Part shown: positions 1,762-10,809 of the stretch, piece by piece
Numbering within the stretch: the stretch's first letter is position 1
How the letters are laid out: every line of letters begins with the position of its first letter
Assembly: GCA_018333635.1 (NCBI GenBank)
Contig: JAGXTL010000016.1
Location: 1-64,000 of the forward strand
DNA: 64,000 nucleotides
Direction: 5' to 3'
Source of the DNA: Dethiobacter sp.
Lineage (GTDB): Bacteria; Bacillota; Dethiobacteria; Dethiobacterales; Dethiobacteraceae
Program-made: the position numbers and the translations under genes
The notes under the pieces: generated by a model
Databases searched by the model: none
Told to the model about the DNA's origin: nothing
The model's input: the letters and a program-made list of their open reading frames with translations, nothing else

Positions 1762-2748
1762 CTATCCCCCAATTTCAACCATACCCCTGGGACCGCATCT
1801 TGAACCCTGCGCGGCAGGACTAGCTTCAGCGTGTTCCGGTTTTTTTTGTAAAACTTCGTAAAAAAGTGGCAGCAGATCTTCTCCTGATTTAAGTGTAGGC
1901 AACAGGTCAACTTCTTCGGCGGAAAACAAGCACGGTCTCAGTTTACCGTCACTGGTAAGACGCAGTCGGTTACACTGCGAACAAAAATGCTGGCTCACAG
2001 GAGTAATAAAACCCAATCTGCCTATGGCCTGCTGATAACGGAAGTTTCGAGCCGGTCCGCTTAAATCTTCTTGCAGCCATGGTTCCATCGGCTCTACAGC
2101 CTCACACAACGCCATAATTTCTCGCGAAGACAGATAATGCTTTTGCCATAAATCATCCTGGCCCAACATAGGCATATACTCAATGAAGCGCACATGAACA
2201 TCCCGGTCATGTGTCAGGCGAGCAAAACTTTGCACTTCGTGGTCATTGATACCTTTCATAACCACCATATTGATTTTTATCGGAGTTAGCCCTGCCGCAA
2301 AAGCAGCATCAATCCCATCAAGTGTTGCCTGAATCTTGCCTCCGCAGGTAATCTGCTCAAAGTTTCTCCCGTCTAGAGAATCCAAAGAAATGTTAACGCG
2401 CTTCAAGCCAGCTTCACGTAAAGGTTTGGCCAGCTCCGCCAACAATGTAGCGTTTGTTGTCAGACTCAAGTCCTCAATTTCTGGTATCTTGGCAATTTCC
2501 CGCACTATTTCTACAATGTCTTTGCGTACCAACGGTTCACCGCCGGTGAGACGAACTTTACGGATGCCGGCTTTCGCAGTTGCTGCCACTACTTGGACGA
2601 TTTGTTGGCGGCTCAACTGTCCTCGAACACTGCGGGGCTTGCACAAATTCCCGGGGCGGCAGTAAAAACAACGTAAATTACAGCTGTCCACCACAGAAAC
2701 GCGCAGATACTCGATCTTTCTGCCATGTGGGTCTAGCAATACTGCCAT
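1762..2748 (-). CDS. moaA: GTP 3',8-cyclase MoaA (molybdopterin biosynthesis)
   Basis: Radical-SAM enzyme for the first step of pyranopterin cofactor synthesis, GTP to 3',8-cH2GTP. The 328-residue protein has the SAM-cluster motif CNLRCFYC near residue 23, LTGGEPL, and the second cluster as CSQCNRLRLTSDGKLRPC in the C-terminal half. It ends in IGG, the glycine tail needed for MoaA function. It starts 26 bases after the sigma-54 activator gene on the same strand and belongs to the adh/aor neighbourhood. Its likely local job is supplying the metallopterin for the tungsten or molybdenum AOR. Length is typical of the family. Confidence 0.95.
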   Translation of the reverse strand: MAVLLDPHGRKIEYLRVSVVDSCNLRCFYCRPGNLCKPRSVRGQLSRQQIVQVVAATAKAGIRKVRLTGGEPLVRKDIVEIVREIAKIPEIEDLSLTTNATLLAELAKPLREAGLKRVNISLDSLDGRNFEQITCGGKIQATLDGIDAAFAAGLTPIKINMVVMKGINDHEVQSFARLTHDRDVHVRFIEYMPMLGQDDLWQKHYLSSREIMALCEAVEPMEPWLQEDLSGPARNFRYQQAIGRLGFITPVSQHFCSQCNRLRLTSDGKLRPCLFSAEEVDLLPTLKSGEDLLPLFYEVLQKKPEHAEASPAAQGSRCGPRGMVEIGG

Positions 2749-2774: not shown

Positions 2775-4643
2775 CTAGGCTTTAAGCCCTAATTCTTCGA
2801 GCTTCCTATATAGCGTAGTGCGCCCAATGCCAAGCATTCTAGCAGCCGGGGCAATTTTACCTTCTGTTTTAGCGAGAGCCTGCAAAATAGCCTGCCTAGT
2901 CTGTTGTTCTAGGAGGGAATGCTGACCGACCATCAGCTTGTCTGCACTGTGCCTTAATTCTTCAGGCAAATCATCAGCCGTTAAAAAAGAACGCTCAGCC
3001 ATAGCCACCATACTCTCGATGCAGTTTTCAAGCTCGCGGATATTACCGGGCCATTCGTACAGCATGAGATGGGTATACACCTCATCGGCAACACCCAGAG
3101 ATGGCTTACCTGCTGCTTTGCAAACCTTTTGCACAAAGTAAGGCACCAGGTCATAGATATCTTCCATCCGCTGTCGTAACGGCGGTACTTCAACCGTTAC
3201 CACTTTGAGACGGTAATAAAGGTCTAGGCGAAACTGCCCCTCATCAATCCGTGACGATAAATCCTGATTCGTGGCGGCGAGGACGCGAACATCCACCTTA
3301 CGCGAGCGGTTATCTCCGATTCTCACCACTTCCCGCTCTTGCAACACTCGCAGTAGCGAAGCCTGCACATTGTGGGGCATATCACCAATCTCGTCTAAGA
3401 GAATTGTGCCCCCTTGCGCAATTTCAAACTTGCCCGGTTGCCCACCTTTTCTAGCTCCGGTGAATGCACCTTCTGTATGCCCAAATAGTTCGCTTTCGAT
3501 GAGTGTGGCAGGAATTGCCGCACAGTTTAAGGCCACAAAAGGTCCATATGCACGGGGACTCATTTGATGAATATAGCGGGCAATAATTTCTTTGCCTGTG
3601 CCTGTTTCACCCTGTATTAAAACTGTGGAATTAGTTATAGCCGCTTTTTCAGCTCGCTTAAACACCTTTTGTGTCACATCACTGCTGCCAACCCATAACA
3701 ATTGCTCACCTGATTCACGGGGAACAGTATTCAACAAGCCCAACACACCCATAGTATAGCCGCTGGCATCAGTGACCTTTGTCATGCGAGAGATAATACT
3801 ATGCTCTTCTCTTAATTCTATATCGGAGGCATGGCCAGAAAACGACCACTGCTTGTTTCCAAATACATCTGCTGCTAGCCGACCTATAATATCACCACGT
3901 TTACGGCCAAGCAAACTGGCGCCGGCCTGGTTAATCTCAGTTACAATGCCATGGCTATTAATAGCGATAAACCCTTCACGCAGCAGCTCACCAGCCATCT
4001 CGATTCCCTGCCTGGCAAAGTGGAAACTCCGCAGCAACTCGGATAAATGAAGGTTTTGTTCGATCAGTTTAGCGCCCATGAGGACAACTTCCACAAGACG
4101 CTCTTCACCACTTCTGATTCCCGCTTCTCCGGAGATATCAATTACACCCACCACTTCACCGCGAGAGTCACAAATGGGGGCAGCCCAACAGTTGAGAAAA
4201 TGATTTTCTAGCACATAGTGCTCCCAGCCCAATATTTTCAAGGGTGCTTTTTCCACTAGCACCGTGCCGATTGCGTTTGTCCCTTTAACTTCCTCACGCC
4301 AGTTTGCGCCAGGGGAGAGATGGACCTGTTGAGCCTTGCTCATAAAAGGAGGGTCCCCCAGCGTTTCAAGCACATACCCTTCATTATCACATAGCAGGAC
4401 AATGTTATTTAGTCCTTCAAGAAACCGATATAGATATGGCAACACTGGCTTACCTGCCTGCACTAAATCCTCGTGAGCTTGACAACGCTGGAGTAGTCTT
4501 GGTGCCGGCAAAATCTCATTACTGCGAACACGCTGATAATCCACTTGCTTTTCCCTGCTACGTTGCCAAGACCGATATAGTAAAGGAGACATTTCCTGCG
4601 GCCTGGCTTCCCCGACGACAAAGCGCTGCCAAACACTGCTCAT
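2775..4643 (-). CDS. Sigma-54-dependent transcriptional activator, AcoR type
   Basis: A 622-residue bacterial enhancer-binding protein. Order of domains: N-terminal GAF-like sensor (about 60-200) with the AcoR-type [10 protein letters not shown] signature, a PAS domain (about 215-290), a AAA+ domain (about 318-550) and a Fis-type helix-turn-helix at the C-terminus ([19 protein letters not shown]). Walker A is GETGTGKE, the sigma-54 contact loop is GAFTGA and Walker B is TILLDEIGD, all intact, so it should activate sigma-54 RNA polymerase. AcoR relatives respond to acetoin or similar small metabolites; here the effector may be an alcohol or aldehyde (inference). It lies downstream of adh, aor and moaD on the same strand. 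Its likely targets are the sigma-54 promoters and paired palindromes at 8.4-8.7 kb. Confidence 0.93.
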
Positions 4644-5131: not shown

Positions 5132-6928
5132 TTATAAACCAAGTGATTTTTTCTTGTCTGCAGTGGGTACACCAGTAGCATCCCAACCACGGACTTCATA
5201 ATACTTGGGCAACAGTTGATCAAGAGGATGAACATGACCCTTGGTGGGGCCTGCTGGCATTGGCTCATCCAGAAGACGTTTGGGCAATGTGTCATCGGCT
5301 GCAGAGTAACCTTCAGCCATGTTGAAAAGACGCTCGACGTTGTATGCGCGGTCACCGGCGGCCAGCACATCTGCGGCTGTGTAGTCTACGCCTGTAGCTG
5401 CAGTCAATAAATTGGCATAGTCGTCGGCACCCAAAGCGAAGGAAGTGAAGAGACAGAGGCCGGAGCTGTCAATAGCAGCGGTGAGGTCCTGGAAAATCCT
5501 CACCCATTCTGCTTTCCCCTCTAAGGAGAAACGATCCAGCTTTTCGGGCATGCCCAGAATTTCCGGGGAAATCATGTAACCACGGACGTGGCAGCCACCA
5601 CGGTTAGAGGTAGCATACTGCAGGCCGTGGCCCATCAGACCGCGGGGGTCATACGCTGGCAGCTCAAGCTTCTTAACAGCCATGGAAAGTTCTGGCGCGC
5701 CATAAGCTTCGGTGAGACGAGCGGAACCCATGGCCAGCTTCTTCCCAAAGCCATCAGTATCACCCATTCGCTTAACCCATTCTACTACAGCTTCAGCATT
5801 GCCCCATGCCAGTTCGGGACCGCCAGCCAACTCATCAGCCTTCACATATCCGCGCTGGTAAAGTTCCATGGCAGCAGCAATGGTAGCACCAGCAGAGATG
5901 GTATCTACGCCAATTTCGTTACAAGCATTGTTAGCTTTGATAATGGCTTTCAGATCGGAGACGCCGCAGTCGCTGCCGAAGGCCCAGATTGTTTCATATT
6001 CCGGACCACCACTGCCTACGCCATCAACTTCACAGTAGCGACCGCAAGCGATCGGACAACGGTAGCAAGGATCTTTTTTCTTCAGATACTTTTCAGCAAG
6101 AGTTTCCCCGGAGATTTCATCCGCATGCGGGAAGACACCTTCCTGGAAATTGTTAGTGGGTAAAATGCCGGCTTCGTTAATAATGTTAATAAGAACAGCG
6201 GTGCCATATGCAGGCAAACCTTGTCCGGTAACACCGTTTTCCTTAATTTTACCCATAGCAGCTTTAACATGCTCTTTAAACTTGTCGACATCTGCCGCTT
6301 CCACCTTGCCGGAACCGCGAACCACAACAGCTTTAAGGTTCTTAGATCCCATAACAGCGCCAACGCCAGAGCGACCGGCTGCACGCCAGCGATCGTTCAT
6401 GATGCAAGCGATGCGGGAAAGCTGTTCGCCAGCGGTCCCAATGTTAGCAACACGGGCTTTGTGATCACCGACTTCTGACAGCAGCATGTCAGTGGTCTCG
6501 TTGGTGTTTTTGCCCCAAACATGGTCAGCGGCCTTAATTTCAACGTCACCATCTTTAATGTTGATGTAAACAGGTGTAGCGGCTTTGCCTTCTACGATCA
6601 GCATATCGTAGCCTGCGAACTTCAGTTCGGCGCCCCAGAAACCTCCGGAGTTGGAAGATGCGATAACATTGTTTAGCGGTGACTTGGTAACAACCATGTA
6701 ACGACCGCCGGTGGGGGCAGAAGTACCGGTGAGGGGACCTGTGATAAAGAAAAGCTTATTCTCCTCGGACAGTGCATCAATACCCGCCGCAATTTCGTTG
6801 GTCAGCATTTTACCGCCTAGGCCTCTGCCACCAATGAATGATTTTGATAGTTCAGCAGATAATTCTTCAGCAGCGATGACCCCAGTGGTCAGGTTGACTC
6901 TCAGAACTTTACCTAAAACAGAACCCAT
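5132..6928 (-). CDS. aor: Aldehyde:ferredoxin oxidoreductase (tungsten type)
   Basis: Cytosolic enzyme oxidising aldehydes to carboxylic acids with ferredoxin as acceptor, using a bis-pterin tungsten cofactor and one 4Fe-4S cluster. The 598-residue protein opens with the family start GSVLGKVLRVNLTTG and has GRGLGGKML, GPLTGTSAPTGGRY and the cluster cysteines in PCYRCPIACGRYC, with a final cysteine in DSSGLCLF. The frame is open 43 codons further upstream, but the ATG at 6928 has AGGAGG just before it and gives the normal family length of about 600. It follows adh by 150 bases containing a perfect stem-loop. Together the two would convert alcohol to acid and yield reduced ferredoxin, or run in reverse. 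Confidence 0.95.
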   Translation of the reverse strand: MGSVLGKVLRVNLTTGVIAAEELSAELSKSFIGGRGLGGKMLTNEIAAGIDALSEENKLFFITGPLTGTSAPTGGRYMVVTKSPLNNVIASSNSGGFWGAELKFAGYDMLIVEGKAATPVYINIKDGDVEIKAADHVWGKNTNETTDMLLSEVGDHKARVANIGTAGEQLSRIACIMNDRWRAAGRSGVGAVMGSKNLKAVVVRGSGKVEAADVDKFKEHVKAAMGKIKENGVTGQGLPAYGTAVLINIINEAGILPTNNFQEGVFPHADEISGETLAEKYLKKKDPCYRCPIACGRYCEVDGVGSGGPEYETIWAFGSDCGVSDLKAIIKANNACNEIGVDTISAGATIAAAMELYQRGYVKADELAGGPELAWGNAEAVVEWVKRMGDTDGFGKKLAMGSARLTEAYGAPELSMAVKKLELPAYDPRGLMGHGLQYATSNRGGCHVRGYMISPEILGMPEKLDRFSLEGKAEWVRIFQDLTAAIDSSGLCLFTSFALGADDYANLLTAATGVDYTAADVLAAGDRAYNVERLFNMAEGYSAADDTLPKRLLDEPMPAGPTKGHVHPLDQLLPKYYEVRGWDATGVPTADKKKSLGL

Positions 6929-7032
6929 TAAACTATTCCTCCTGTCTCTTGATGATTTTATTATACCTATATCTAATAACACAAGTAGTGTACCAGCTTT
7001 ATCAATGTTATAAACTGAACTTGAGTTAAATA

Positions 7033-7064
7033 AATCCTGATGAGTCTTCTGACTCATCAGGATT
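7033..7064 (-). terminator. Perfect 14-bp stem-loop between adh and aor
   Basis: AATCCTGATGAGTC and its exact complement flank a 4-base loop, 15 bases after the adh stop. On the minus strand it is followed by TTTATTTAA, a weak T-run. It may be a partial terminator or an mRNA-stabilising hairpin that sets different adh and aor levels. Confidence 0.6.
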
Positions 7065-7078
7065 GTAGGAACGGTGAA

Positions 7079-8227
7079 TTACATAGCACTTTTGAACATA
7101 TTGATAACATCCTCAAGTTTAGCAGTAACCGGGTTGGTAAAGCTACAAGCATCAACCATGGCGTTTTTAGCCATAACTTCGAAATCTTTTTCTTCAACGT
7201 TTAGTTGTGTTAAACCAGCGGGGATAGCGATGTCAGCGGAGAGTTGCTGAATAGCGGTAAGAGCTTTTTCAGCACCTTCACGTACGGACAAGTGGTCTAC
7301 CTTTTCGCCCATAGCTTTAGCCATATCAACAAAACGCTGCGGGTTAGAAATAAGGTTAAAACGCTGTACATGGGGCAGCAGAATGGCGTTGCATACGCCG
7401 TGGGGCAGATCATAAAATCCGCCAAGCTGATGAGCCATAGCATGTACATAACCCAAACTAGCATTATTGAAGGCCATGCCAGCAAGAAGTTGGGCGTAGG
7501 TCATGGCGTCACGGGCTTCCATGTTGTCACCATAGGCAACTGCGCTTCGCAGATACTTAGAAATCAGCTCAATGGCTTTCAGAGCACAAGCATCGGTAAC
7601 TGGCGTAGCAATAGTAGAAACATAAGCTTCAACAGCGTGTGTCAACGCATCCATGCCAGTGGCAGCAGTGAGGCCCCGGGGCATTTTTGCCATGATTTCG
7701 GGGTCGTTGATGGAAACCTGGGGAGTTACTCTCCAGTCAACAATGGCCATTTTAACTTTGGTGTCAGTGTTGGTGATAATACAAAAACGGGTTATTTCAG
7801 AAGCAGTACCGGAAGTAGTATTCACAGCAACCATGGGAGGCATGGGCTTTGAAGACTTATCGACCCCGGCGAAGTCACGAATGTTGCCGCCGTTACCAAT
7901 GACAAGACCAATGCCTTTGGCGCAGTCATGAGAACTGCCGCCGCCGAGGGAAACGATTATGTCACACTTGTTTTCCTTATAAATCTTTTCACCGTCAGCC
8001 ACATTGAGGTCAGTAGGGTTGGGGATAGCGCCGTCAAAGATAACTGACTTCACATCAGCTTCTTTCAGCAAGCCAGCAATCATGTCAGCTAACCCTAATT
8101 TACTGAGATCTTTGTCAGTAACAATCAGAGCCTTTTTAGCACCTAAAGTTCTTGCGCGATTTCCTACTTCCTTAACACAACCGGCACCCATCAAGTTCAC
8201 TGTAGGCATAAAGAAACTGTAACTCAT
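7079..8227 (-). CDS. Iron-containing alcohol dehydrogenase
   Basis: Group III NAD(P)-dependent alcohol dehydrogenase, 382 residues with the ATG at 8227, which follows GGAGGAG; the frame extends 15 codons further without a better site. The nucleotide-binding motif is GGGSSHD. The iron ligands lie in DALTHAVEAYVS and in HAMAHQLGGFYDLPHGVCNA. It interconverts primary alcohols or diols with aldehydes in the cytosol. It is the first gene of the adh-aor-moaD-activator-moaA series, and a near-consensus sigma-54 promoter lies about 155 bases before the start codon, so induction by the adjacent AcoR-type activator is likely. The exact substrate cannot be read from the sequence. Confidence 0.95.
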   Translation of the reverse strand: MSYSFFMPTVNLMGAGCVKEVGNRARTLGAKKALIVTDKDLSKLGLADMIAGLLKEADVKSVIFDGAIPNPTDLNVADGEKIYKENKCDIIVSLGGGSSHDCAKGIGLVIGNGGNIRDFAGVDKSSKPMPPMVAVNTTSGTASEITRFCIITNTDTKVKMAIVDWRVTPQVSINDPEIMAKMPRGLTAATGMDALTHAVEAYVSTIATPVTDACALKAIELISKYLRSAVAYGDNMEARDAMTYAQLLAGMAFNNASLGYVHAMAHQLGGFYDLPHGVCNAILLPHVQRFNLISNPQRFVDMAKAMGEKVDHLSVREGAEKALTAIQQLSADIAIPAGLTQLNVEEKDFEVMAKNAMVDACSFTNPVTAKLEDVINMFKSAM

Positions 8228-8392
8228 AAATAACTCCTCCTCATTTTTATATCTCTTTGTTGGGTCTGCCACAAGATTGCTTACAAAACAATGCCTTTCT
8301 TCCCACTACCCTCCTCTTCGAGGCAATCACTTTTCCGCCTTAGCATTGAATCCAAGCCCTTTTATCTTGTTAGTGTTGATACCTAGATAACT

Positions 8393-8410
8393 AGCAAGAT
8401 CCATGCCAAA
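8393..8410 (-). promoter_or_regulatory. Near-consensus sigma-54 (-24/-12) promoter for adh
   Basis: Read on the minus strand the sequence is TTGGCATGGATCTTGCT. It matches TGGCAYRNNNNTTGCW with GG and GC ten bases apart (GG at 8406-8407, GC at 8394-8395). Transcription would begin near 8382, about 155 bases before the adh ATG. The sigma-54 activator gene is four genes downstream. Confidence 0.8.
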
Positions 8411-8562
8411 TTCAGAATTGTTAGTAAATTAACTAGTGGGTAGTCTTTCAAGTAGTTTTGTTCGTTTTCACATCTTTATTTTTGATTTCTAGCCTACTTT
8501 TCGTCAACTAGTTGCCTTTCGTGGAAATTTACGAACAAACAGACTGATTAATCATAAAAAAG

Positions 8563-8612
8563 TGTCCCAATTTGGTGCATTCTATAATATCATCTTGTTC
8601 CATATTGGGGCA
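8563..8612. promoter_or_regulatory. Two similar 17-bp palindromes, probable enhancer-binding sites
   Basis: TGTCCCAATTTGGTGCA (8563-8579) and TGTTCCATATTGGGGCA (8596-8612) are imperfect palindromes of one design, with centres 33 bp apart, about three helical turns. They lie 160-200 bp upstream of the adh sigma-54 promoter and 120-155 bp upstream of a weaker sigma-54 match facing the other way. That is the usual distance for upstream activating sequences of sigma-54 activators. Confidence 0.65.
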
Positions 8613-8723
8613 GTTAAGTATCAAGCTGGGCGTAATTAATAAAATTTTTAATATTCTAAATATTTAAGTATATTATAAACTGCCATACAGAAAATTAGGT
8701 TTTCATGTATACTAGACTTATAT

Positions 8724-8739: not shown

Positions 8740-8782
8740 AACCAAACTTGCTTTGGCAATTTAATTATTAGGAGGAGATTTT

Positions 8783-10003
8783 GTGATTCCGCGGGAGCAA
8801 TATACCACTGATAAACCGGTGTATGAGTTGAAAGAGAAACAATATAACCGTTTTCCGGTTTTTAAGCAGGCCTTTGTTACGGTGAGTGAAGAAGATACAG
8901 GCGAGCGGAGTTACATGGGTTTTCTAGCAAAAATGCAGGAAAACGCCGTAAAAAATATGATGTGCGATGTTTCAGGACGTACTATCGCCGATTATGCGCT
9001 TAACTTTGGCGCTAATACCATTAACCTGATTCTTGGTGAGTATGGTTTCCCCAACAGCCACTTTCTTAAATGGAGTCCGCTTTTTGTACCAGAGGTGCTA
9101 ACACAAAGACCGGCTGAGACGGATCGAGAAAAACTGACGGGACTGGTGAAAAGCACCGCAGAACTTTACGGCGCCGATCTAGTGGGAGTTACCGGCCTTG
9201 ATGAAAAGTGGGTTTATTCTCACGATTTGTTTAAGCCCTTTCTATTGGCAGACACAGATAAACCACAGGAAACAGAAGATGCTTTTGTCATTCCGAAGTC
9301 GATGAATACAGCGATTGTGCTGGCGGTAGCCATGAATACTGAGCTGATAGAAAAATCACCGAAAGTGGCCGGGGGTACAGCCGTAAACCTTGGTTATTCC
9401 CGGATGGGCATTCTGGCAGTTTCACTGGCGGAGTTTATCCGCTCCATGGGCTATCTAGCAATACCCTGCATGAATGACACCGCACTTAGTGTGCCACTAG
9501 CCATTGACGCTGGTCTCGGGGAATTGGGACGCCACGGACTTCTGATTACCCCGGAATTTGGCTCAAATGTGAGGCTATGCAAAGTATTGACCAATATGCC
9601 ATTGCTTCATGATCAACCGATCGATATGGGCATAACGGAGTTTTGTGCGCAGTGCCTGCTTTGTGCGCAGCATTGTCCTGCTAATGCTATTACAAGTGGG
9701 AAAGCTTCTTTTGAAGGCGTTTGTCAAAACAACAATCCGGGCATAAGGAAATGGCATGTTAAGTCATCCGATTGTCTGCATTTTTGGCAGCAAAACGGGG
9801 TCGACTGCGCAAATTGCATTGCGGTCTGTCCGTTTACTTACGGCTTTCACTGGTCACAATGCGTTGAATGTGTACGCTGCGACACAACCTATGGTTGTTC
9901 CTTGCATCTTGCCACCCACTTGCGTGAAAAATATGGGTTCATTAAAGAAGCTCGCTGGTGGGAGCGCTCCGTACAAACACCGCTGCCACGCAAGGGTCTC
10001 TAA
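8783..10003 (+). CDS. Cytosolic reductive-dehalogenase-like iron-sulfur protein
   Basis: A 406-residue protein of the RdhA superfamily (corrinoid and 4Fe-4S). The family core is clear: DAGLGELGRHGLLITPEFG, then the first ferredoxin cluster FCAQCLLCAQHCPANAI and a second cluster with CANCIAVCPF. An extra cysteine set (CVECVRC) follows. There is no twin-arginine signal and no rdhB anchor gene, so it is not an exported respiratory dehalogenase; it would act in the cytosol. Its substrate is unknown, and it need not be a halogenated compound. The GTG start follows GGAGGAG. It is transcribed away from adh and shares its regulatory region. Epoxyqueuosine reductase is a distant relative but fits less well. 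Confidence 0.8.
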   Translation: MIPREQYTTDKPVYELKEKQYNRFPVFKQAFVTVSEEDTGERSYMGFLAKMQENAVKNMMCDVSGRTIADYALNFGANTINLILGEYGFPNSHFLKWSPLFVPEVLTQRPAETDREKLTGLVKSTAELYGADLVGVTGLDEKWVYSHDLFKPFLLADTDKPQETEDAFVIPKSMNTAIVLAVAMNTELIEKSPKVAGGTAVNLGYSRMGILAVSLAEFIRSMGYLAIPCMNDTALSVPLAIDAGLGELGRHGLLITPEFGSNVRLCKVLTNMPLLHDQPIDMGITEFCAQCLLCAQHCPANAITSGKASFEGVCQNNNPGIRKWHVKSSDCLHFWQQNGVDCANCIAVCPFTYGFHWSQCVECVRCDTTYGCSLHLATHLREKYGFIKEARWWERSVQTPLPRKGL

Positions 10004-10167: not shown

Positions 10168-10809
10168 TTGCCCGCTAGAGACAAAGTCGCGCGCTATGAA
10201 CGCGACCCCTTCTTAAAGGAATCATACGCCATTGACCGTAGCTCCGGCAGAATAATCATCGAGGTCTTGCTGGAAAAGCAGATCTATCTGTTTAATGAGT
10301 GGGATAACGCTTCCTACAACCGCAAAGACCTTGACCCGGATCTCATTTACTTTCTTGAGGAGTGTTTTGATGAGATCCCCTATGAGTATGAAGTGCAACT
10401 AAACATCGCCATTAACGAGAAAGAGCGCGACCCTGCGCGCGAAGCAGCGATAGCCGAGGGCATTAAGTCTCAGTTCCGACATTACCAGCGCGCGAGCAAA
10501 CGAAAACTCAAGGAGCTGTATCGCCGTGCCGCCTTTTATGTTTTAGTCTCCGCAGGGTTTCTGCTTATCGCAGGGTTGCTCGAGGGTCGCCTCATCGCAA
10601 GACCCGTCTCTGCGGCGCTGCTGCAGGGACTCTATGTGGGCGGGTGGGTGTTCTTGTGGGAAGCCATCTCAGAGGTCTCATTTAGTCGCGGCAGAGCGGC
10701 TTTGACCCACAAGATGCGCGCATACGAACGCTTTCTGCGCGCCCCGGTCGTGTTTGCCGATGTAGGACAAAAAAAGCCAGTAGAACAGACAGCAGTCATT
10801 CAAAGATAA
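10168..10809 (+). CDS. Membrane protein of unknown function
   Basis: A 213-residue protein I do not recognise. An acidic soluble N-terminal part of about 125 residues is rich in charged residues, followed by two hydrophobic helices (about 127-145 and 150-172) and a short basic tail. The TTG start follows GGAGG in an otherwise start-poor stretch. Many GCG and CGC codons give it a higher GC feel than its neighbours, and a REP-type palindrome sits 20 bases past its stop, so it may have been acquired. It is a single-gene unit converging on aroE. Confidence 0.7.
   Translation: MPARDKVARYERDPFLKESYAIDRSSGRIIIEVLLEKQIYLFNEWDNASYNRKDLDPDLIYFLEECFDEIPYEYEVQLNIAINEKERDPAREAAIAEGIKSQFRHYQRASKRKLKELYRRAAFYVLVSAGFLLIAGLLEGRLIARPVSAALLQGLYVGGWVFLWEAISEVSFSRGRAALTHKMRAYERFLRAPVVFADVGQKKPVEQTAVIQR

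Follow-up and report, generated by a model that had tools for sequence, protein, structure and literature searches.

We found that the gene at 8783-10003 (+) of the window, by which we mean the whole 64,000-nucleotide stretch of DNA analysed here, encodes a protein of the reductive dehalogenase (RdhA) type on the PceA branch, neither QueG nor BhbA/NpRdhA-like, and that it belongs to a clade distinguished by a conserved four-cysteine tail. Our best reading, to which we give a probability of roughly 55%, is that the protein is a cytosolic, ferredoxin-fed, PceA-like reductive dehalogenase serving detoxification or catabolism, not respiration. The coordinates of the gene, its motifs and its neighbours are collected in Table 1.

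Table 1. Features of the reductase gene and its surroundings (positions in the window)
Feature	Position	Strand	Basis
moaA, Mo/W cofactor biosynthesis	1762..2748	-	TIGR02666, 356.5 bits vs cut-off 284.05
Sigma-54 activator (AAA+ and Fis-type HTH), which may regulate ADH-AOR	2775..4643	-	
Aldehyde:ferredoxin oxidoreductase (AOR)	5132..7057	-	
Iron-containing alcohol dehydrogenase (Fe-ADH), divergent neighbour	7079..8272	-	
Sigma-54 (-24/-12) promoter-like site facing ADH-AOR	8393..8408	-	Pattern scan
17-bp partial palindrome, candidate activator site 1	8563..8579	.	Pattern derived from the two sites themselves
17-bp partial palindrome, candidate activator site 2	8596..8612	.	Pattern derived from the two sites themselves
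Ribosome-binding site AGGAGGAG	8770..8777	+	Read directly; five bases 5′ of the GTG start
RdhA-type corrinoid/FeS reductase gene, 406 aa, Tat-less	8783..10003	+	TIGR02486 score, structure matches, tree, Tat/rdhB scan
Trp97, equivalent of PceA Trp96	9071..9073	+	Alignment to PceA
Tyr205, equivalent of PceA proton donor Tyr246	9395..9397	+	Alignment; role from accessible text of PMC10624902 and PMC7565698
Asn231, equivalent of PceA Asn272	9473..9475	+	Alignment
Arg264, equivalent of PceA Arg305	9572..9574	+	Alignment; role from accessible text of PMC10624902
First ferredoxin motif CxxCxxCxxxCP, Cys288-291-294-298	9644..9676	+	Alignment
Second ferredoxin motif, invariant Cys331 and Cys342-345-349	9773..9829	+	Alignment
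Clade-specific C-terminal CxxCxxCx5C, Cys360/363/366/372; proposed third metal site	9860..9898	+	Motif count in clade

Identity of the reductase

The reading frame is intact from its GTG start, and its 406-aa product scores above the cut-off of the NCBIfam RDH model TIGR02486 (199.8 versus 160.35 bits) and far below that of the QueG model TIGR00276 (51.5 versus 200 bits). Pfam PF13486 (Dehalogenase) gave a borderline result, with 23.8 bits in the protein search and 24.9 bits in the genome search against a cut-off of 24.3 bits, and a Pfam search at E 1 returned no domains other than Dehalogenase and Fer4 types, with no fused reductase domain. Within the source genome (2.39 Mb in 137 contigs), the gene is the sole match above the PF13486 cut-off; two further weak matches (E 2e-11 and 4e-10) are both short QueG-like frames.

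The first-pass annotation had described an orphan protein with an RdhA core, two ferredoxin motifs, no twin-arginine (Tat) signal and no rdhB, and each part of this description held: the two cysteine sets align, a sequence scan found no Tat motif in the protein, and no RdhB-like gene was recognisable within 1.5 kb. A hidden or missed signal peptide is excluded because only six open codons precede the GTG start before a stop codon is reached. As any signal is absent, the sequence indicates that the reductase is probably cytosolic.

Clade placement

A 51-row maximum-likelihood tree places the reductase within a clade of 21 (support 100/99), whose members come from the window's phylum or are named Bacillota. 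The sister group of seven rows (100/93) includes Sulfurospirillum PceA, a Desulfobacteraceae RdhA (L017), an Archaeoglobi RdhA (L016) and others, and the clade and its sister group are joined with support of 99/99, while BhbA/NpRdhA-like and QueG rows lie at a distance, the latter as outgroup. The comparison with RdhA, BhbA-type and QueG proteins that had been proposed at the outset puts the reductase outside QueG and its clade sister to PceA-type enzymes; a position within QueG, which would have refuted the first-pass reading, did not result. QueG identity was ruled out by the TIGR00276 score, by residues (Asp and Tyr in QueG) and by the tree, and BhbA/NpRdhA membership by residues (Lys, not Arg, in that group) and by the tree.

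None of the 20 clade members having an N-terminus carries a Tat motif. No RdhB was recognisable within 1.5 kb on either side of the 21 loci, in a scan that was judged by eye, is crude for such small two-helix proteins, and was shortened by contig ends at L003, L009, L084 and L085. Small hydrophobic ORFs do occur near six clade loci (L052, L053, L003, L056, L011 and the window, where the ORF lies inside the ADH gene), and none of them recurs or carries the ExE motif present in L017 and L086. The sister group is mixed, with Tat in three of six genes tested and an RdhB-like gene in two of six: L017 and L086 have both, the RdhB-like gene lying directly downstream, L018 has Tat, and neither feature was found for L016, L019 or L020. 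Absence of Tat is therefore not unique to the clade, as half of the tested sister-group genes also lack it; what is unique to the clade among the rows compared is the four-cysteine tail.

Outside the clade, L078 (1375-3447) encodes an RdhA relative of roughly 690 aa that extends far past its second ferredoxin motif and may be a fusion. Two short RdhA-like proteins from the window's class (L030, 1066-2070; L031, 1057-2106) pair on a very long branch; they carry Gly at the Asn column and have nothing aligned at that of Trp.

Active-site residues and the four-cysteine tail

Trp96, Asn272 and Thr242 of PceA are positions that we take to have functional roles in that enzyme. In a 52-row alignment, all 21 clade rows retain the equivalents of the PceA Tyr, Asn and Arg, and all 20 that reach the region retain that of Trp. 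The Thr242 column holds Val201 in the window protein and varies among Thr, Ala, Val and Ser in the clade, so the substrate pocket need not fit the substrates of PceA. For PceA, a part in proton transfer has been suggested for Tyr246 and the stabilisation of a tyrosyl intermediate for Arg305, and mutations of these residues lower or abolish activity (PMC10624902); a second account likewise gives Tyr246 as the presumed proton donor (PMC7565698).

Additional cysteines towards the C-terminus had been reported by the first-pass annotation as three in number and as a possible further cluster. Upon inspection, we counted four, within CVECVRCDTTYGC (residues 360-372), with ten residues between Cys349, the last ferredoxin cysteine, and Cys360. 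They are a real conserved trait: C-x2-C-x2-C-x4-6-C follows the second ferredoxin motif in 21 of 21 clade rows, compared with 0 of 30 other RdhA/QueG rows. Judging by its cysteine pattern, the tail probably forms a third metal site, and that site probably holds a [4Fe-4S] cluster, while zinc could be bound there instead. Searched alone against solved structures, the tail gave a best E of 0.021, to zinc fingers, with no convincing relative, and we rejected a zinc-finger reading of the segment since these matches (E 0.02) lean on histidines that are not kept in the clade.

Genomic contexts in the clade

Two clade loci, L008 (646-5604) and L009 (6463-9224), share a run of ArsR, ACR3 and reductase genes, in which ACR3 scores 384.1 and 377.8 bits respectively (cut-off 282.8) and the reductase gene begins 80 and 45 nt later; at a third, L013 (6191-9218), ArsR and ArsP_1 genes lie upstream of the reductase gene. 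These arrangements, together with remaining contexts that are mixed and without an organohalide-specific partner, could mean that a PceA-fold enzyme has been repurposed for a non-halogen substrate, for example the reductive cleavage of carbon-metalloid bonds in organoarsenicals, or for another low-potential detoxifying reduction. We consider this possible but unlikely: the Tyr, Arg, Asn and Trp of PceA are kept throughout the clade, the arsenic context occurs at only three of 20 loci, with L008 and L009 sharing one five-row subclade, and PF03773 permeases are not all arsenical exporters, that of L008 also matching SaoE and Cu/Zn models below their cut-offs. A candidate ArsI-type C-As lyase beside L010 was rejected, the neighbour being GloA, a lactoylglutathione lyase (200.4 bits, cut-off 165).

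Molybdate-binding ModA is encoded upstream of the reductase gene in L082 (8012-10177; 224 bits versus a cut-off of 62.5) and, by likeness only, in L083 (7871-10515), EamA transporter genes precede the reductase gene in L052 and L053, and a divergent TetR gene adjoins it in L007 and L011; in the sister group, MoeA precedes L016. The contexts as a whole are suggestive of a portable enzyme for detoxification or a side pathway, and Mo/W and arsenic themes recur among them.

An AOR gene lies within 2.5 kb of the reductase gene at four of 20 clade loci (the window, L054, L005 and L015), where L054 and L004 are one and the same stretch, as are L053 and L002. Against an expectation of 0.19 this count gives P 3e-5, with a mean density assumed for 12 of the loci, and for the eight genomes whose AOR genes were counted, adjacency in two against 0.08 expected gives P 0.002; the AOR test was picked after the data had been seen and treats loci as independent, which is untrue of L005 and L015. 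The link to AOR drawn by the first-pass annotation is partly borne out: AOR was not seen near the other 16 loci, and the gene orders differ, with ADH-AOR divergent in the window and AOR upstream on the same strand in L054, L005 and L015. AOR does not define the substrate, because other members adjoin arsenite or ArsP genes or molybdate-uptake genes, and nothing pointed to the aldehyde-related or aromatic substrate that had been envisaged.

At L005 the gene order is IclR, AOR, reductase, YcaO, two CoA-transferases, acyl-CoA dehydrogenase and a family III CoA-transferase. A cysteine-rich YcaO gene likewise lies 3′ of the reductase gene at L015 (3045-5791) and L085 (1-2071), as at L005 (3913-6570), with AOR preceding in two of these three.

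Focusing more specifically on the window, the ADH and reductase genes have a 510-bp intergenic region in common, and the first-pass annotation had supposed a regulatory link between the reductase and alcohol and aldehyde oxidation. Our results do not establish this link: on the + strand of the intergenic region, allowing at most one mismatch, no sigma-54 site faces the reductase gene, and a sigma-54 promoter for it was rejected since the only intergenic site detected points to ADH-AOR. Such sites are also no commoner in the whole window than in shuffles (12 versus a mean of 12.0 in one scan, 5 versus 3.3 in the other). A weak sigma-70-like site (8648-8676) does face the reductase gene, and sites of this kind do not exceed the shuffled level in the intergenic region. 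The sigma-54-type promoter, the two palindromes (together 8393-8612) and the activator gene (2775-4643) look like a sigma-54 circuit governing alcohol/aldehyde oxidation; the paired 17-bp sites are absent at L092, a second AOR locus in the same genome, and at L093, an AOR-reductase locus.

The AOR arrangements just described, divergent in the window and same-strand elsewhere, would also fit facilitated fermentation, with the reductase acting mainly as an electron sink that reoxidises the ferredoxin from ADH-AOR and accepts a broad range of organohalides. Given the lack of shared-promoter evidence and of a nearby AOR in 16 of 20 members, we hold this to be improbable.

Structural model

The solved structure closest in sequence is PceA of Sulfurospirillum multivorans (4UQU, E 4.3e-67), followed by 8Q4H (5.8e-51), NpRdhA (about 2e-18) and QueG (2.4e-7). 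We built an AlphaFold model from 18 sequences, comprising the window protein and related loci (mean pLDDT 73.6, pTM 0.78), in which residues 1-28 fall below pLDDT 50 and residues 351-370 reach only 57-67. Among the structural families in the match list, the model lies closest to PceA (Z 28.6, rmsd 2.7 over 272 residues), then to 8Q4H (Z 22.5, rmsd 3.7, 274 residues), NpRdhA (Z 20.6, rmsd 3.6, 274 residues) and QueG (Z 15.2, rmsd 3.0, 207 residues), and Foldseek returned structural relatives in the same order. As a member of the RdhA family the reductase is expected to bind a cobamide, and we infer a cobamide pocket from the modelled fold match and the catalytic residues; the genome encodes CobS, as do eight of the ten genomes searched.

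Weak model matches to MMACHC (Z 6.9, rmsd 3.9) and CblD (Z 5.9, rmsd 3.2), the single copy of the gene and the lack of obvious substrate genes near it in the window might instead indicate a corrinoid-handling or activating reductase that acts on a cobamide or corrinoid protein and not on a small molecule. The chance of this appears slim, as such Z values may reflect a common arrangement only, with PceA far above at 28.6, and the clade keeps the dehalogenase residues without exception.

Proposed mechanism

For the reading that we prefer, a ferredoxin-fed cytosolic dehalogenase, two [4Fe-4S] clusters would pass electrons to the core cobamide to give cob(I). The presumed substrate, an organohalide, would undergo reductive dehalogenation in which Tyr205 donates the proton and Arg264 stabilises a tyrosyl intermediate. 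Electrons from menaquinol at a membrane anchor are ruled out because the reductase is without Tat and RdhB, so electrons must reach the distal cluster from elsewhere. The four-cysteine segment, as an extension of the ferredoxin domain, would sit in a good position to carry a third cluster and to meet a soluble ferredoxin; its metal site, probably [4Fe-4S], could accept electrons from reduced ferredoxin and so replace the anchor, with AOR as one likely source of that ferredoxin in this organism. A more far-reaching idea is that the clade forms a class apart, made up of cytosolic cobamide reductases with three clusters that are driven by ferredoxin, act in nature on toxic organometalloids (such as organoarsenicals, by anaerobic C-As cleavage) and in some hosts have come to draw that ferredoxin from AOR. 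We offer it as speculation with long odds against it.

Distribution, maintenance and significance

Close relatives are patchily distributed, with occurrences in 1 of 4 genomes of the window's genus, 5 of 19 of its family, 6 of 97 of its class and 8 of 398 sampled from its phylum. Compared with a 72% identical relative (L052), the gene has a pN of 0.17 with a saturated pS of 0.76, which argues for purifying selection and a maintained gene. A decaying or non-functional remnant, as patchiness in the genus might suggest, is already contradicted by this ratio, the intact frame, the ribosome site and the kept catalytic and cluster residues, and has next to no probability.

Downstream, 10168-10809 encodes a protein of 213 aa that matched no NCBIfam model at 1e-10 and has a 79% relative in a genome of the same genus (G003). 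As that relative sits in an unrelated neighbourhood, G003 was rejected as an empty site and an insertion boundary could not be drawn.

To our knowledge, the Bacillota hosts of the clade are not regarded as organohalide respirers, and the clade would place reductive dehalogenation, or chemistry derived from it, in Bacillota outside the recognised respirers. By seemingly swapping the membrane anchor for a cysteine cluster of its own, the clade would show how the electron supply of an RdhA can be switched from quinol to ferredoxin, and the neighbouring AOR, molybdate-uptake and arsenic-resistance genes offer concrete candidate substrates and donors. Respiratory RdhAs are hard to study, being oxygen-sensitive and membrane-associated (PMC10463259), and the soluble RdhAs characterised belong to the distant catabolic branch; a soluble clade neighbouring PceA could offer a convenient system in which to study how PceA works.

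Comparison with known systems

The reductase has the marks of an RdhA, namely a TIGR02486 score above cut-off, both ferredoxin motifs and the Tyr/Arg pair of PceA, and neither the Tat signal nor the linked rdhB of a respiratory one. It resembles the respiratory PceA of S. multivorans, a TIGR02486 member, in its fold, both ferredoxin motifs and the equivalents of Tyr246, Asn272, Arg305 and Trp96, and differs in lacking Tat and a detected RdhB and in having the four-cysteine tail in place of the C-terminal segment of PceA. For the D. hafniense PceA, distances of 8.3 Å from the catalytic site to the proximal cluster and 9.9 Å between the proximal and distal clusters have been described, the distal one lining up with menaquinol (PMC10624902).

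The catabolic BhbA/NpRdhA enzymes are Tat-less and cytosolic (PMC6797604), as is probably the reductase, which carries no Tat motif, and NpRdhA contains a cobamide and two clusters (PMC7565698). None of the catabolic hallmarks was found, whether placement with BhbA/NpRdhA, the Tyr/Lys pair or the fused reductase domain of some members: these enzymes form a distant branch, with Asp and Lys where the reductase has Asn and Arg, and the BhbA and NpRdhA coding sequences compared are far longer (3042 and 3219 nt). With QueG (epoxyqueuosine reductase) it shares a related core and a dicluster ferredoxin domain, whereas Asp and Tyr occupy the Asn and Arg columns in the two QueG rows aligned.

Tat-less RdhAs have been known before. 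The Smkt1 cluster from marine sediments, compared here by its published description, has two FeS motifs in 12 of 12 members and Tat in 0 of 12, with an adjacent rdhB at one gene and no mention of a four-cysteine tail in the accessible text, which also cites earlier Tat-less cases (PMC3939436). Elsewhere, 9 of 88 expressed genes had incomplete or missing Tat motifs (PMC12090745), and RdhAs with N-terminal helices have been described along with cytoplasmic catabolic ones (PMC6797604). The accessible parts of the literature searched, whose scope did not extend to the ortholog-group survey of Molenda et al. 2020, held no description of a PceA-branch clade with a conserved four-cysteine tail, an outcome that concerns those texts and makes no claim of absence from print. 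Thus, while a Tat-less RdhA is not new, the conserved four-cysteine tail sets this PceA-branch clade apart among the rows compared.
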